NCBI GenBank assembly: GCA_016790075.1
Contig: JAEUPP010000013.1
Location: 1 to 64,000 of the forward strand
DNA from: Rhodanobacteraceae bacterium
Lineage (GTDB): Bacteria > Pseudomonadota > Gammaproteobacteria > Xanthomonadales > Rhodanobacteraceae
Reading direction: 5' to 3'
Length of the DNA stretch: 64,000 nucleotides
The notes below the pieces were generated by a model that ran no database searches, was not told where the DNA came from, and saw nothing but the letters and a program-made list of their open reading frames with translations. This document shows positions 58,305-64,000 of this stretch, in pieces. Both the position numbers and the translations under genes were made by a program. Position 1 is the first letter of the stretch. Each line of letters opens with the position of its first letter.

Positions 58305-59342
58305 GTGGTCATGGTCAATCCAGGTGCATCGCTGGCGGGGATACCCGGTGCGGGCGGTTCGTTCGCCCGCAGCCGCCCGCCTTTCCTGCCGCGTCAACTA
58401 TCGGAAGAGGAACTGGCGCTGTTCATCAGCGCCGGGCAGCGCCGCGAGGTCGTGCCGCGCGAGATGATCTTCCGCAAAGGCGAACTGGGTCGCACCATGT
58501 TCGTGATCGAGTCCGGCACTATCCAGCTGGAATTCGGCGACGGCATGCCCGACAAACTGATCGGTGCCCGGGAGTTTTTCGGCGAACTTGCCCTATTCAT
58601 CGGCAACCACGCGCGTGTAGCCAATGCCATTGCCGCGGAAACCAGCGTGCTGCGCGTGATTGAACACCCGGAATTTGAAACACTGCTGCAGACCCAGGCC
58701 CCGCTGCTCGCGCAATTCATGCGGCGCTCGTTCTCCTATCTGGTCGCGAGCGAACAGCAGCTTATCCAGAACCTGAAGCGGCGCAATGAAGATCTGCTGG
58801 TTACTCTGGATTCGTTGCGCCAGACGCAGACGCAGTTGTCGACTGCCGAACGCCTGGTGCGCACCGACGAGCTGACCGGCCTGTGCAACCGACGCGGGCT
58901 TTATCATTTCCTTGAAGAGTTGCGGGCTAACCGCGACCCCTCGCGGCGTCTTGGCTTGCTGCTGATCGACATCGATCACTTCAAGCAGATCAACGATCAC
59001 TACGGCCACCTGAGCGGCGACATCGCGCTGCGCGCGGTCGCACGCGAAGTGCAGCAGGCGGCGCTGACCTGCGACCTGCCCTGCCGCTTGGGCGGCGACG
59101 AATTCGCGCTACTGGTTCAGGTGCGCGACCCCGAAGAATTGCGTGACCGTGCCGCGCAGGTCACCAGCGGCGTGCGTGCGCTGCGCTTCCACGCTCCGGC
59201 CGAGGGCTTGCTGGTCAGCGTCAGTATCGGCGGCAGCCTATGCCACGAAACGGCCGAATGGTCGGCCTGGTACAGCGATTCGGACTGTGCGCTCTACCTG
59301 GTCAAGGGCGAGGGCGGCGACAACTATCGCGTTATCGCCTGA
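58305..59342 (+). CDS. cNMP-binding diguanylate cyclase (GGDEF)
   Basis: 345 residues from the GTG at 58305 (or ATG 58311), behind GGGGGGA. Residues ~40-150 are a cyclic-nucleotide-binding domain (FRKGELGRTMFVIESGTIQL, LIGAREFFGELALFIGN). A coiled linker (LIQNLKRRNEDLLVTLDSLR) leads to the GGDEF domain: RTDELTGLCNRRGL, LIDIDHFKQINDHYGHLSGD and an intact RLGGDEFALL at ~263. The upstream inhibitory RxxD site has lost its Arg (LTCD), so product inhibition is probably absent. It would make c-di-GMP in response to a ligand. No membrane segment. Confidence 0.93.
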   Translation: MVMVNPGASLAGIPGAGGSFARSRPPFLPRQLSEEELALFISAGQRREVVPREMIFRKGELGRTMFVIESGTIQLEFGDGMPDKLIGAREFFGELALFIGNHARVANAIAAETSVLRVIEHPEFETLLQTQAPLLAQFMRRSFSYLVASEQQLIQNLKRRNEDLLVTLDSLRQTQTQLSTAERLVRTDELTGLCNRRGLYHFLEELRANRDPSRRLGLLLIDIDHFKQINDHYGHLSGDIALRAVAREVQQAALTCDLPCRLGGDEFALLVQVRDPEELRDRAAQVTSGVRALRFHAPAEGLLVSVSIGGSLCHETAEWSAWYSDSDCALYLVKGEGGDNYRVIA

Positions 59343-59558: not shown

Positions 59559-62222
59559 ATGAATGCCTTGGTGTCGCCTACGGAATCGCAACCGTCACCA
59601 CGTCAGAGCACGCCCTTGCTGCGCACGCTCGCGCTGTGCGACCTCGTCGACTCCACCAGTCTCGTCGAGCGGCTGGGCGACCAGCCGGCGGCCCAGCTGC
59701 TGCGCCGCCACGATCGCATGGCGCGCGACCTCATGCTGGCCCACGAAGGCCAGGAGATCGACAAGACCGATGGTTTCCTGGTCCTGTTCGAGCGCCCGAT
59801 CCAGGCCATCGCCTTCGCCCTGGCCTATCAACGGGAACTGCAGCATCTGGGTGCGGACGAAAAGGTCGAGCTGAAAGCACGCATCGGCATTCATGTCGGC
59901 GATGTGCTGGTCTGGCAGAACGAACCCGGCGATGTAATCCACGGCGCCAAGCCGCTGGAAGTTGAAGGTCTGGTCAAACCCGTGACCGCACGGCTCGCCT
60001 CGCTGGCCTTGCCGGGACAAGTCCTCGTATCCGGCGTGGCCGCCAGTCTCGCGCAACGTGCCCACGCCGAACTCGGCGCCAAGGCTGACCGCACGCGCTG
60101 GATCAACCATGGCCGCTATCGTTTCAAGGGCGTGCCCGAACCTCAGGTCGTCTACGAAGTCGGCGAGGTCGGCTTTGCGCCACTGCGCCAGCCGCCGTAT
60201 TCGGGCAAGGCCTGGCGCGAGGTACCCTGGTGGCGCCGTCCCGGCACCATGTTTATCGAAGCCGGAATTGCCGCAGCCGCTATCGTGCTGGGCATCTGGC
60301 TGATACTGCGGCCACCGGCCGCCATTGCCTTCGCCGAACGTGACTGGGTGGTACTGGGCGACCTGCAGAACCTGACCGGCCAGGCCAATCTCGACGACAC
60401 CCTGCGCACGGCGCTGCGCCTAAGTGTCGAGCAATCGCGTTATGTCAACGTGGTATCCGATCTGCAGGTCCGCGATTCCGTGCGGCGCATGCGCCGCGAC
60501 CCCGCCAATACGCGTATCGATCGCGCCATCGGCGCTGAAGTCGCCTTGCGCGAAGGCGCACGCGCCCTCGTACTGCCCAGCATCGCCGAAGTCGGCGGCA
60601 AGCTGCGCGTGACCGCCGAGGTCATCGATCCGGGCAGCCAGACCACGGTCTACACCGATTCGGCGGAAGGCAGCGGTATCGAGTCGGTGCTGACCTCGCT
60701 GGACCGGATCAATGCGCAGCTGCGCGCGCGACTTGGTGAATCACTGGCTCAGGTCAAGACGACCAGCCAGCCGCTGGCGAAGGTGACGACTGACAACCTT
60801 GAAGCGCTGCGAGCGTATTCGCTGGCGCGCAAGGCGGCTACCGAGGGCAACGGCGATACGGCTCTGGATCTATACGAGCAGGCGATCCGGCTCGATCCGG
60901 AGTTTGGGCTTGCTTATCTGAGTCGCGCTGGGTTGCGCCTGGGGGCCGATGACAAACGGCGCGCCAAGGAAGATATCGAGCGCGCAAAGGCATTGCGCGA
61001 ACGCCTTCCCGCACGCGAACAGCTCTATATGGATGCCCTCGCAGCCAGCTTCGCCAAACCTTCCGATATCCAGAAGAAATGGGCGCTATTGGGCGAAATG
61101 TATCCCGACCATTATGCAGCATTCGCAAATCTTGCGCATTTTATATACGTGTACGACGGGCGATACGCTGAAGCCATCCGCGTCGCGGAGAAGGCAATCG
61201 CCCCGAACTACCCGCGCAGCGGCAATACACACTATTTGCTCGGCCAGCTGTATACGGCGAGCGAAATGCCGCAAAAGGCGAAGCTCCATTTGCAACGCGC
61301 CAAGGAATTGAACTCACAAAGGCAAGGCACTTTCATTGTCGATGCGGCAGCGAGCATGCGCCGCTTTGCCGAAGCAGATGCTGAAATGGCCGCCGCAAAG
61401 CCTCTTGGCGTACCGAGCAACGACGTGCTACAGCATCGCTTGCGAGTCGCACTAGCTGTTGACAAGGGGCTATGGCGCGACGCGCTGGCACGCGCAGATG
61501 AAGCAGAGACTGCAGCGGCAGCGGTGGGACCACTCCCGACTCGTCTGTTTCAAGGCACCAAGCTTTCGCTGCAGGCCATCGCAACGCCGGGCACCGAATT
61601 CGCGCGTCAGATCAATGCCTACGCACGCAACGAAATCTCTGCACTGAGCGACTCGCAGAACTACGACCGCGACCAGTCACTCTTCGGAGTCTTTTTCGCA
61701 GCATATCTCGCGGCACGCAACGGCGACGAAGAACTCGCGAAGTCCGTAGCTGCTCCTGTAGTCGATCATGCCGACATCAAACACTACCGCTATGTTGCTG
61801 ATATGGCGGCACTGGCCCAAGCGCAGCTCTCAATCACTAAAGGTGATGCCAAAGCGGCACTGATACTGCTATCGGCTCGGATTGATGGGGCGGAACTCTA
61901 TCTGCTGCACAGTGGACTGCGCGACGCGCACACTCTAGCTGGCAATCTAGACGATGCTGCGCGCGAGGCGCAGTGGCTGGCGCAGCATCGTGGTCGCGCC
62001 TATGCCGAATACAACGCTACACAGATTCTTAAGGCACTCAATGTTGCGGAATCGAACCTCGCCGTACTCAGCGAAGCGGAGATCGCGCTACTGCAGAAAA
62101 AGACAACCATATCTGCAAGCAAACTAGCCGATTTTCTCCGCCTATGGCCTGAAGCAGAATTACCGGCGCCCCTGAAGCGCCGCGTGGACGCAGTCCGCAA
62201 GGACGCCGGCGATCATTCTTAG
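59559..62222 (+). CDS. Peptide-modification-system cyclase: nucleotide cyclase domain, one TM helix, TPRs
   Basis: 887 residues from ATG 59559 (GGAG eight bases upstream; a TTG two codons earlier is possible). Residues ~20-210 form a class III nucleotidyl cyclase domain: TLALCDLVDSTSLVERLGDQ with metal Asp28, then DKTDGFLVLF where many have a 'GDGF' motif, and ARIGIHVGDVLV. One membrane helix follows (~232-252, FIEAGIAAAAIVLGIWLILR), a FlgO-like periplasmic stretch, then TPR repeats from ~420. As I remember, this architecture is the 'putative peptide modification system cyclase' family (TIGR04510), found beside TIGR04509 peptides and TIGR04511 dehydrogenases, both present here. By eye the TPR half is less GC-rich than its neighbours. 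Whether it makes a nucleotide is untested. Confidence 0.85.
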   Translation: MNALVSPTESQPSPRQSTPLLRTLALCDLVDSTSLVERLGDQPAAQLLRRHDRMARDLMLAHEGQEIDKTDGFLVLFERPIQAIAFALAYQRELQHLGADEKVELKARIGIHVGDVLVWQNEPGDVIHGAKPLEVEGLVKPVTARLASLALPGQVLVSGVAASLAQRAHAELGAKADRTRWINHGRYRFKGVPEPQVVYEVGEVGFAPLRQPPYSGKAWREVPWWRRPGTMFIEAGIAAAAIVLGIWLILRPPAAIAFAERDWVVLGDLQNLTGQANLDDTLRTALRLSVEQSRYVNVVSDLQVRDSVRRMRRDPANTRIDRAIGAEVALREGARALVLPSIAEVGGKLRVTAEVIDPGSQTTVYTDSAEGSGIESVLTSLDRINAQLRARLGESLAQVKTTSQPLAKVTTDNLEALRAYSLARKAATEGNGDTALDLYEQAIRLDPEFGLAYLSRAGLRLGADDKRRAKEDIERAKALRERLPAREQLYMDALAASFAKPSDIQKKWALLGEMYPDHYAAFANLAHFIYVYDGRYAEAIRVAEKAIAPNYPRSGNTHYLLGQLYTASEMPQKAKLHLQRAKELNSQRQGTFIVDAAASMRRFAEADAEMAAAKPLGVPSNDVLQHRLRVALAVDKGLWRDALARADEAETAAAAVGPLPTRLFQGTKLSLQAIATPGTEFARQINAYARNEISALSDSQNYDRDQSLFGVFFAAYLAARNGDEELAKSVAAPVVDHADIKHYRYVADMAALAQAQLSITKGDAKAALILLSARIDGAELYLLHSGLRDAHTLAGNLDDAAREAQWLAQHRGRAYAEYNATQILKALNVAESNLAVLSEAEIALLQKKTTISASKLADFLRLWPEAELPAPLKRRVDAVRKDAGDHS

Positions 62223-62473
62223 TCTGCTCTGAGGTCGTGAATGACCGCATCCAGAGTACCGCCAAGCTGCTTCTGTATTACGGCACGCGAAGTCTTCAAC
62301 GTCTGAGGATCCGCTAACTGCTTGCACTGCGCAAAGCATTTCGCCAGTTCCACCGGTGCGCCGATCTGCTTGAGTGCCGCCTCCGGATCTTTAAGTAACA
62401 ACGCACGGAATTCGTCGTCGGAACTCAGTTTGTCGAGTAGCGTATCCACCTGCGCAGACGTAAGACTAGCCAT
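62219..62473 (-). CDS. RiPP precursor-like peptide 1 (NHLP-type leader)
   Basis: 84 residues from the ATG at 62473 (GTG three bases earlier possible), with AGGGGG upstream. The leader half has AQVDTLLDKLSSDDEFRALL and LKDPEAALKQIGAP, the 'FRxxLLxDPxAAL' pattern of nitrile-hydratase-like leaders. The second half has Cys46 and Cys50 (KCFAQCKQLADPQTL) and ends AVIHDLRAD. I believe it belongs to the TIGR04509 'putative modified peptide' family. It converges on the cyclase gene; their stop codons overlap by two bases. The final product and cleavage site are unknown. Confidence 0.85.
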   Translation of the reverse strand: MASLTSAQVDTLLDKLSSDDEFRALLLKDPEAALKQIGAPVELAKCFAQCKQLADPQTLKTSRAVIQKQLGGTLDAVIHDLRAD

Positions 62474-62487
62474 CACAATTCCCCCTA

Positions 62488-62518
62488 GTTGCCACCACCC
62501 GTGGCCGGACGAGTGTAA
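62488..62518 (-). repeat. 5' region of peptide 1, duplicated upstream of peptide 2
   Basis: About 30 bases aligning without gaps to 63015-63044 (23 of 30 identical, shared GGCCGG(A/G)CGAGT). It lies just before the ribosome site of each peptide gene, showing that the duplication included the leader region of the mRNA. Confidence 0.6.
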
Positions 62519-62655
62519 CGAGCAAGCAGCAGGCCAACAATTAGTTCACGCGGGCAACACACCGCTACAGTAGGTACCGAAAAGCTACGCGGTCGCCGCG
62601 GAATATAGCCACGAATACCAAGCAACCGCGCGGAATCAGCGCGAATTTATCGACC

Positions 62656-63000
62656 TCAGCTCACGCGAAGGTCATGAATGTTTGCACTTAGTGTCGCACC
62701 TATCTGCTGCCGAATCGCCGCACGCGACGCTTTCAGCGTCTCCGCATCAGCCAATTGCTTGCACTTCCCAAAGCACTTCACCAGCTCGATAGGCGCGCCT
62801 ATCTGCCCGAGCGCAGCGGCCGGATCGCTGAGCAACAGCGCTCGAAACGCGTCATCGCTGCTCAGCTTATCTAGCAGCATATCCACCTGCGCCGAAGCAA
62901 GGCGTACCGTCGCGGGGGCGGCCGTCGCTGACCGGAATTCGTCAGTCGAGCCCGCCTTGTCGAGCACTGTATCCAGCTGCCCAGCAGTGAAACTATCCAT
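62656..63000 (-). CDS. RiPP precursor-like peptide 2 with duplicated leader start
   Basis: 114 residues from the ATG at 63000, which has AAGGA six bases upstream; the ATG at 63006 has no spacing. Residues 31-114 align without gaps to peptide 1 with 59 of 84 identities, including LLDKLSSDD, FRALLL, QIGAP, KCF, CKQLAD and IHDLR. Residues 1-23 (AGQLDTVLDKAGSTDEFR) repeat residues 31-53 at an exact 30-residue offset, so the leader's first part is duplicated in tandem. Cys76 and Cys80 match Cys46 and Cys50. Same family as peptide 1; expected substrate of the dehydrogenase and possibly other enzymes outside the window. Confidence 0.85.
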   Translation of the reverse strand: MDSFTAGQLDTVLDKAGSTDEFRSATAAPATVRLASAQVDMLLDKLSSDDAFRALLLSDPAAALGQIGAPIELVKCFGKCKQLADAETLKASRAAIRQQIGATLSANIHDLRVS

Positions 63001-63014
63001 TGCCATTCCTTATC

Positions 63015-63044
63015 GTTGCCGCCAATTGCGGCCGGGCGAGTTTA
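63015..63044 (-). repeat. 5' region of peptide 2, duplicate of 62488-62518
   Basis: Gap-free match to the region before peptide 1, in the same position relative to the start codon. Confidence 0.6.
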
Positions 63045-63097
63045 GTGGGCAGGTTGCTGGTCAACAACGGGTTCCGGCTGCAGGCACCGGCCAGTCC

Positions 63098-63127
63098 TTG
63101 CGACATAGGCTCGTGTGCTTGTCGCAA
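63098..63127. promoter_or_regulatory. Dyad between divergent peptide and dehydrogenase genes
   Basis: TTGCGAC-N16-GTCGCAA, a perfect 7-bp inverted repeat in the 218-base divergent gap, well placed to control both directions. No convincing -10 boxes were found. Confidence 0.4.
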
Positions 63128-63218
63128 CGGCATTCAGCCGCTAGTGTCGCGCCGGCTGTTGGCGGCCACTGTCGAATGTGGCAACCCGTATCTTGGTATC
63201 ACATTCCCGGAGTTCCGC

Positions 63219-64000
63219 ATGCGTGTGCGCCGCTGCGCCCATCTGATGTTTGAACCACGCGAGGCGCTGCAGTTTGATCTCGATTCTCTGGTCGGCGGAG
63301 GTGACGGACTGCGCACGGAACTTAGCCTGCTGGCCCTGGTGCCGCATAACCGGCAGGAGATCGCTGTGTCCGTGGCGGAGGCCGCCCTGCTTGCCCGCGT
63401 GCCCTGCACTACGTGGACCGATCTGGAAACACTTGCGGCCACGCATGACCCGGACGGGATCCACTCGCTGATCGCACGCGGACTGCTGATTGCCGACGAT
63501 GCTGACCACGCCGCGGACCGTGCCCGCGACGATCGGGTACGGGAAGCCAACTGGCATACGCTGTCGGCAGTGCAACACTATTTCGGCTGCTGGGACGGGG
63601 TGCGCTCCGGCGACGAGACGCGCAGAGCCGGTTACGTCACCTTGCAGGATCTGATTGCCAAACTCGGTGAACCGCCGCCGCCGGCACAAGAGCACAGCAG
63701 CGCTGCCGCACGTCTGCCGCTGCCGCCGCCGCAAACCAGCGATTTCGACGACCTGCTCAGGCGCCGCGCAACCTGCCGCAATTTCGATACCACGACAGCA
63801 TTGGCCCAGACAGAGCTTGCGACCATGCTGCACCGCGTGTTTGGCGCCCAGGGCACGCTACAGATCAACGGCGGTGGTGACACTACCGTGATCAAGCGCA
63901 ACAGCCCCTCCGGCGGCGGCCTGCATCCAACCGGTGCGTATGTGATCGCACGGCATGTGCAAGGCCTGGCCTGTGGGCTGTATCACTACCGGCCACTTGA
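63219..64000 (+). CDS. SagB/ThcOx-type peptide maturation dehydrogenase, cut by window end
   Basis: ATG 63219 with GGAG six bases upstream; 260 codons are seen without a stop. The N-terminal ~150 residues (LMFEPREALQFDLDSL, VQHYFGCWDGVRSGDETRRA) are a variable region. From ~185 the nitroreductase-like domain begins: LLRRRATCRNFDTTTALAQT, MLHRVFGAQGT, then KRNSPSGGGLHPTGAYVIAR and GLYHYRPL, the FMN-binding hallmark of SagB-like enzymes that oxidise azolines to azoles in modified peptides. I place it in the 'putative peptide maturation dehydrogenase' family (TIGR04511). It is divergent from the two peptide genes. Confidence 0.9.
   Translation, partial: MRVRRCAHLMFEPREALQFDLDSLVGGGDGLRTELSLLALVPHNRQEIAVSVAEAALLARVPCTTWTDLETLAATHDPDGIHSLIARGLLIADDADHAADRARDDRVREANWHTLSAVQHYFGCWDGVRSGDETRRAGYVTLQDLIAKLGEPPPPAQEHSSAAARLPLPPPQTSDFDDLLRRRATCRNFDTTTALAQTELATMLHRVFGAQGTLQINGGGDTTVIKRNSPSGGGLHPTGAYVIARHVQGLACGLYHYRPL

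Follow-up and report, generated by a model that had tools for sequence, protein, structure and literature searches.

The regulatory system closest to the locus described here is the cyclic GMP (cGMP) pathway of Xanthomonas campestris (Xcc). In the available part of the report on this pathway (An et al., 2013; PMC3770947), XC_0250 is an 886-residue guanylate cyclase with tetratricopeptide repeats (TPRs) and XC_0249 is a protein with a cyclic-nucleotide-binding (cNMP) domain and a GGDEF domain, the synthesis of cyclic di-GMP (c-di-GMP) by which is raised by cGMP. The adjacency of the two genes is reported there across a number of xanthomonads; the same part gives the function of the TPR domain as uncharacterised and mentions neither a peptide, a dehydrogenase nor an input signal. 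The TPR domain is still termed uncharacterised in the available part of a 2019 review (PMC8042644). Here, a locus was analysed in a 64,000-nucleotide stretch of DNA (the window) from a Rhodanobacteraceae bacterium (assembly GCA_016790075.1), which comprises bases 1–64000 of the 98,464-base contig JAEUPP010000013.1 (C49). Positions 59559–64000 encode a membrane nucleotide cyclase, two NHLP-type peptides and a SagB-like dehydrogenase, each scoring above its curated cut-off. Comparison of the sequences with those of relatives makes it probable that the locus provides a peptide signal as the input to a cascade leading from cGMP to c-di-GMP, the modified and exported peptide being the ligand of the receptor cyclase.

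The gene families were already catalogued and the lower half of the cGMP pathway is published. No earlier description of the connection to the cGMP pathway, of the alleles or of the actinomycete copies reported below was found in the open-access literature searched, and neither the three family names together nor the term 'putative peptide maturation dehydrogenase' occurred in any paper found there.

Locus organization and correspondence to XC_0250/XC_0249

The initial annotation had assigned the locus to the families TIGR04509, TIGR04510 and TIGR04511 and had described two precursor-like peptides and a SagB-type dehydrogenase. Searches with hidden Markov models confirmed these assignments: all of the proteins scored above the cut-offs and their genes are grouped. 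The cyclase gene (59559–62222, plus strand, ATG start) gave 906.6 bits against TIGR04510 (cut-off 400) as well as TPR matches. Its receptor-like product consists of a class III cyclase domain, a single predicted transmembrane segment at approximately residues 231–252 (60249–60315, plus strand), placed by a hydrophobic 19-mer that 94 of 95 cyclases contain here, and a periplasmic sensor half with TPRs (60400–62222, plus strand). Peptide A (84 residues; 62219–62473, minus strand; 65.3 bits against TIGR04509, cut-off 34) is encoded convergently with the cyclase, with overlapping stop codons, and is followed by peptide B (116 residues, or 114 from the next ATG; 62656–63006, minus strand; 65.2 bits). 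The dehydrogenase gene starts at an ATG at 63219 on the plus strand, is cut by the window edge at 64000 and ends 415 bases beyond it at C49 position 64415; the part within the window gave 288.4 bits and the full-length protein 503.7 bits (C49 63225–64373) against TIGR04511 (cut-off 240). The intergenic stretch between the starts of peptide B and the dehydrogenase (63007–63218) is a possible divergent promoter region.

A further gene lies directly upstream of the cyclase on the same strand (58305–59342, plus) and encodes a cNMP-binding GGDEF diguanylate cyclase (Pfam cNMP_binding 4.1e-15, GGDEF 3.8e-33); it neighbours the cyclase in most relatives. The window thus contains the architecture of the published cascade, a class III cyclase joined to TPRs beside a cNMP-binding GGDEF protein. 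The usual order across relatives is cNMP-GGDEF and cyclase on one strand, the peptide convergent with the cyclase and the dehydrogenase divergent from the peptide. A second architecture, in which the dehydrogenase is on the strand of the peptide, was seen in distant families (loci L127–L131, L175, L192 and L200).

Judged by gene order and individual residues, the window cyclase and the cNMP-GGDEF protein (the effector) correspond to XC_0250 and XC_0249. A Xanthomonas cyclase (L167) is 886 residues long and agrees with XC_0250 at all six published functional positions. Among ten listed cyclases from genus g58, which is Xanthomonas (six g58 loci have a cyclase and a dehydrogenase identical to those of named Xanthomonas records), three have all six residues and seven have five. 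At the positions of D41, D71, L73, A150, L157 and A161 the window cyclase has D, D, F, A, V and A. Of the seven cGMP-contact residues of XC_0249, the window effector keeps F73, E90, L91, H98 and E146, with N145 replaced by S and V142 by L. The five retained residues are invariant in all 137 cNMP-GGDEF proteins compared, and at position 145 of the cGMP-selective diad N145–E146 there is N in 95, S in 39 (including the window protein) and G in three. The cNMP domain of L165 matched PDB entry 5h5o, in which all seven ligand residues of XC_0249 occur at one offset; this entry is presumably XC_0249 itself, the accession given in PMC3770947 being 4KG1, which is absent from the structure matches listed. 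The presence of a cyclase at a peptide locus is accounted for by this match of the neighbouring genes to the XC_0249/XC_0250 pathway.

In two Xanthomonas loci (L173 and L321) the gene just beyond the dehydrogenase is convergent with it and encodes a lipoprotein with the lipobox LSA-C-S (Cys 17), as is given for XC_0253 in the available part of PMC6341742. By numbering, XC_0251 and XC_0252 would then occupy the place of the peptide and the dehydrogenase between XC_0250 and XC_0253; neither is named in any paper found in the open-access literature.

The earlier reading of the stretch as a probable ribosomally synthesized and post-translationally modified peptide (RiPP) locus therefore held for the families, the peptides and the SagB-type enzyme; as a plain RiPP reading it was incomplete, having missed the cNMP-GGDEF gene, the match to XC_0249/XC_0250 and the exchange of the cassette described below.

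Distribution of the module

In 117 genomes of the family of the window, the cyclase was found above cut-off in 39, the peptide in 39 and the dehydrogenase in 38, with the genes together. TIGR04510 was above cut-off in 121 of 398 genomes of the order and in 29 of 35 from genus g58. In a class-wide sample TIGR04511 matched at E 1e-60 in five of 369 genomes, all within the order. After 12 duplicates had been dropped, 148 distinct loci with at least one part were obtained, most of them via cyclase or dehydrogenase matches; the peptide was present in 148, the dehydrogenase in 142 (a length filter overlooked those of L187 and L228, which are present in the gene layouts), the cyclase in 139, the cNMP-GGDEF gene in 125 and all four in 120; contig ends account for some of the absences. 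The peptides accordingly have homologues beside cyclase and dehydrogenase genes in other genomes, the lack of which the initial annotation had named as grounds for abandoning its interpretation. A scan of named genomes yielded 281 relatives, the best 80 of which came from Xanthomonas, Lysobacter, Pseudoxanthomonas, Stenotrophomonas, Thermomonas and others, and from six actinomycetes.

Cyclase–peptide pairs are duplicated beside one dehydrogenase in L117 and in L112, the latter cut by a contig end. The module of L330 (genome G805) looks decayed, with cyclase and dehydrogenase each matched in pieces and an incomplete peptide match. Viral carriers of the module were considered and dropped, as no relative was found among viral contigs.

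Exchange of sensor half, peptide and dehydrogenase

The cyclase is most variable from about residue 440 on, in the TPR region: in blocks of 40 residues, the mean pairwise identity among 49 sequences was 0.46–0.68 over residues 1–440 and 0.16–0.42 beyond. When distances were compared over 95 loci, the periplasmic half tracked the dehydrogenase (0.78) and the peptide leader (0.70) and its own cyclase domain only at 0.57, and the cyclase domain tracked the GGDEF protein (0.86). With the other parts held fixed, the peptide leader still followed the periplasmic half (0.36).

Recently diverged pairs of loci were defined by at least 90% identity of the cyclase domain and at least 85% of the GGDEF protein, which gave 145 pairs among 96 single-copy loci. 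In 61 of these the periplasmic half was below 60% identity; on this shared backbone the median identity was 31% for the peptide (at least 60% in one of the 61) and 46% for the dehydrogenase (at least 70% in four). Where the periplasmic half was at least 70% identical (80 pairs), peptides were 69–100% and dehydrogenases 64–99% identical. Most strikingly, L173 and L175 share 100% of the GGDEF protein and of the cyclase domain, but identity falls to 30% in the periplasmic half, 27% in the peptide and 35% in the dehydrogenase; the DNA is 97.2% identical up to about cyclase residue 270 and 99.1% identical again from 250 bases beyond the dehydrogenase.

In 28 Xanthomonas (g58) genomes, a set that excludes G805 with its broken cyclase, grouping by periplasmic identity (single linkage, at least 65%) gave six alleles of 15, six, four, one, one and one members. 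Peptide identity was 65–99% within and 18–57% between alleles (378 pairs), and that of the dehydrogenase 73–99% within and 32–68% between (325 pairs, the truncated genes of L168 and L315 being left out), neither pair of ranges overlapping; since the alleles were grouped on periplasmic identity, only these two separations are independent of the grouping. The medians for the GGDEF protein and cyclase domain were 94 within and 93 between alleles. Placed on a tree of the backbone, the allele labels required 11 changes against a shuffled mean of 12.1, a value as low being reached in 44 of 200 shuffles. Both flanking blocks were obtained for 205 of the 252 between-allele pairs; in these, homology was lost from cyclase residue 266–364 and regained 151–755 bases beyond the dehydrogenase (5–95% ranges). 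Outside g58, where the pairs include Xanthomonas-titled loci not placed in that genus (L230 and L250), 14 of 41 recent pairs were switched, 13 of them including the peptide. In the Lysobacter pair L234/L239 (Lysobacter sp. MMG2 and Lysobacter arvi) homology returns near the start of the dehydrogenase, so that sensor and peptide are swapped and the dehydrogenase is kept.

The sensor half, the peptide and usually the dehydrogenase thus switch together, while the catalytic half, the GGDEF protein and the flanking DNA stay similar. Signal gene and sensor half co-vary as discrete alleles beside a conserved output half, as in pherotypes. Exchange of the three as one cassette points to signalling, and the joint exchange of peptide and sensor between species suggests that the peptide is probably the missing signal of the known cGMP pathway.

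The same pattern could arise by hitch-hiking, if the periplasmic half varied for another cause, such as a phage or host ligand, and the peptide and dehydrogenase were adjacent passengers. The swapped block forms one continuous stretch and, once the remaining parts were held constant, the C-terminal columns of the peptide carried no extra signal with the periplasmic half (−0.003) and followed the dehydrogenase (0.28). Passengers should be dispensable, yet the peptide is kept in all 148 loci and the dehydrogenase in 142, bearing in mind that most loci were obtained via cyclase or dehydrogenase matches; moreover, sensor and peptide change jointly in L234/L239 while the dehydrogenase stays, and cyclase–peptide pairs duplicate as pairs. 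Hitch-hiking is on balance improbable. Another explanation is that the cyclase cascade controls an antimicrobial, bacteriocin-like RiPP, with the sensor detecting a competitor or the producer itself and the cassette varying as bacteriocin–immunity loci do. A precursor-like peptide with a SagB-type enzyme is typical of RiPPs, and co-varying toxin and recognition genes would yield an identical allele pattern. What co-varies here, however, is the sensor half of an enzyme that makes a messenger, the frequency of the cyclase in Xanthomonas (29 of 35) resembles that of a core regulator, although in the family of the window it is only 39 of 117, and no recurrent immunity-like gene emerged from a clustering of the neighbours of 41 loci, which was rough because long antisense open reading frames (ORFs) confused the gene picking. 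We regard a bacteriocin-like product as unlikely, and the two further points in its favour are given with the actinomycete copies and the downstream genes.

An anti-phage cyclic-nucleotide system was also tried and dropped: PADLOC gave nothing for the cyclase, peptide A or the dehydrogenase, and for the GGDEF protein three weak matches of the cNMP domain to TIR effectors.

Peptides and dehydrogenase

The 196 distinct peptides share a conserved leader (L-L ... DD-FR ... DP ... AL ... G), followed by a variable linker, a frequent Cys (in 140 of the 178 not gapped at that column), a LASKEE-like helix that is conserved and a C-terminal end that varies around a loose hydrophobic pattern. Both window peptides stayed below the cut-off of the Os1348 NHLP clan precursor model NF038399 (34 and 28.7 bits; cut-off 40), to which TIGR04509 is a sister model. 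The CFxxC motif, which had been taken to be conserved, occurs in five of the 196 peptides, all from the genus of the window itself, and was dropped as a core motif. At the N-terminus of peptide B the leader motif is partly repeated; the stretches upstream of peptides A and B are alike by eye, and together these features suggest a possible tandem duplication. Five peptide-matching frames stand in a row in L203, and L198 contains several peptides and dehydrogenases.

The full-length dehydrogenase passed the SagB family model TIGR03605 (125.9 bits, cut-off 78.4), contains the W-K-Y motif common to ThcOx and was modelled by AlphaFold2 with a mean confidence (pLDDT) of 93.7. It resembles ThcOx, McbC and BmdC in sequence and fold matches; four PDB entries labelled as nitroreductases scored about equally. 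The protein does not score as an ordinary nitroreductase, which the initial annotation had treated as a possible outcome, as it reaches the models of SagB-type peptide dehydrogenases. In L168 and L315 (Xanthomonas genomes G371 and G809) the dehydrogenase frame matches the model no further than positions 107 and 54, respectively, with a full-length cyclase and a peptide present. Weak TIGR04511 matches in G016, G027 and G104 lie within open frames of 1389–2615 residues and are perhaps oxidase domains of megasynthases.

A SagB-type dehydrogenase with a W-K-Y stretch would fit an ordinary azole-type RiPP locus (thiazole/oxazole-modified microcin, TOMM) with a YcaO enzyme encoded elsewhere. It had been suggested that such an enzyme lies past position 64000 or that the chemistry differs. 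The first of these options fails: a search of the genome of the window (95.65% complete) gave no YcaO match, and inspection by eye of the ORFs in the 14 kb that follow 64000 showed no gene for YcaO, radical SAM or LanM (the latter two were looked for in these 14 kb only). Of the 196 peptides, 14 have no Cys at all and 133 have none in the last 30 residues, and the azole reading is largely refuted and highly improbable.

Actinomycete copies

Six actinomycetes (five Streptomyces and one Kribbella) encode one to five peptides together with the dehydrogenase. In the six stretches there was no match to the cyclase or the cNMP-GGDEF protein, and TIGR04510 had no match genome-wide at E 0.001 in any of the six, a point in favour of the bacteriocin-like reading. 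In a FastTree phylogeny that included five of the six loci, the actinomycete dehydrogenases formed one group (local support 85) inside Lysobacter sequences and joined L180 (Lysobacter sp. Root690) with a local support of 93. A single transfer of the dehydrogenase into actinomycetes is likely, a grade kept at this level because the tree was made with FastTree only. The actinomycete peptides have two types of end, HTVVF-like and NPH-like, similar to those of Xanthomonas and Lysobacter peptides. The five peptides of Kribbella antibiotica (L220) differ in their ends.

Downstream genes

By eye, the dehydrogenase is followed by LysR, metallo-hydrolase, HlyD, ATP-binding cassette (ABC) ATPase, FtsX, TetR and hemerythrin genes and then by HslV/HslU and HrpB look-alikes. 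The HlyD-, ABC ATPase-, FtsX- and TetR-like genes at approximately C49 66400–69900 (L003 8459–11884) are a possible exporter, and a set of this kind would also suit a bacteriocin-like peptide. The ABC gene belongs to a broad family, F6, members of which are located downstream of the dehydrogenase in several loci from the genus of the window (L003, L096, L098, L099 and L104); in the clustering of 41 loci the family was not found at that position in other genera. Two adjoining hemerythrin-like proteins are encoded at L003 12394–13802 (contig 70393–71801); further members of their family, F23, are encoded in L096 and, as two copies, in L098. The XC_0253-like dipeptidyl-aminopeptidase-like lipoprotein just past the Xanthomonas cassette (L173 1156–3333, L321 10008–12185) could be the trimmer of the peptide.

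Proposed mechanism and its standing

In the mechanism proposed for the signalling module, the SagB-like flavin dehydrogenase would recognise the NHLP-type peptide via its leader and oxidise some residue without a YcaO partner. The modified peptide would be exported and probably trimmed and, as the cassette swap suggests, would bind the membrane cyclase in the periplasm, at its variable TPR half. The cyclase would then make cGMP, which, by correspondence of the compared residues with XC_0250/XC_0249, would raise c-di-GMP synthesis by the neighbouring cNMP-GGDEF protein. Exchange of sensor half and peptide, usually with the enzyme, between species at the same chromosomal site would let the alleles act like pherotypes.

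Several observations weigh against this mechanism. As the peptide gene lies directly beside the region for the sensor half, a replacement selected only for its sensor, for instance under pressure from phages, could carry the peptide along. Allele A by itself is clustered on the backbone tree (six changes against 9.6, as low in seven of 500), and the switched pair L179/L239 breaks the linkage (sensor 58%, peptide 77%, dehydrogenase 92%). The cNMP-GGDEF gene was not seen in 23 of the 148 stretches, some of which come from contig ends, and the window proteins differ at L73, L157 and N145, which makes a preference for cGMP over cAMP uncertain here. No exporter could be linked to the module, the only C39 peptidase in the genome is encoded on a different contig, and six actinomycetes have the peptide and dehydrogenase without a cyclase match. 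Our confidence in the signalling module was lowered slightly on account of possible passive co-transfer, the nil correlation of the C-terminal columns with the sensor and the clustering of allele A.

More tentatively, and as a possibility that we would not call probable, a ribosomal peptide oxidised by a SagB-type enzyme without YcaO may serve the Xanthomonadales as a pherotype that a peptide-gated receptor guanylate cyclase reads directly as cGMP and passes on as c-di-GMP; Streptomyces and Kribbella may have taken the peptide and enzyme genes without the receptor from a Lysobacter-like donor and may make decoy signals.

The Xanthomonas cGMP pathway was described in 2013 with the input to its TPR half missing, and the present analysis names a testable, neighbour-encoded ligand together with natural allele pairs. 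If the mechanism is correct, the module would add to Gram-negative bacteria a kind of peptide quorum sensing in which a cyclase is the receptor. It would also give SagB-type enzymes a chemistry that needs no YcaO and might be an instance of signals being mimicked across phyla.

Comparison with known systems

With the XC_0249/XC_0250 pathway the locus shares adjacent cyclase and cNMP-GGDEF genes and matching functional residues. The available one-line descriptions of TIGR04509, TIGR04510 and TIGR04511 speak of putative peptide modification and mention neither cGMP signalling, the fourth gene, the alleles nor the actinomycete copies. NCBIfam separates the dehydrogenase from SagB-type enzymes as TIGR04511, of type 'exception'. 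Unlike the azoline dehydrogenases ThcOx, McbC and BmdC, it is encoded in a genome without a YcaO match and with no non-ribosomal peptide synthetase in view alongside. The agr locus of Staphylococcus is a pherotype quorum-sensing locus in which enzyme, pre-peptide and receptor are encoded together and fall into specificity groups. The comQXPA locus of Bacillus, as described in the available part of PMC4008528, likewise holds a modifying enzyme, a pre-peptide and a receptor in one locus with polymorphic specificity groups, an arrangement to which the present cassette corresponds. The modifying enzyme of comQXPA is an isoprenyl transferase, whereas a SagB-like enzyme is found here; in contrast to both loci, the present module is Gram-negative and has, in place of a histidine kinase, a nucleotide cyclase with TPRs in its periplasmic half as the putative receptor.

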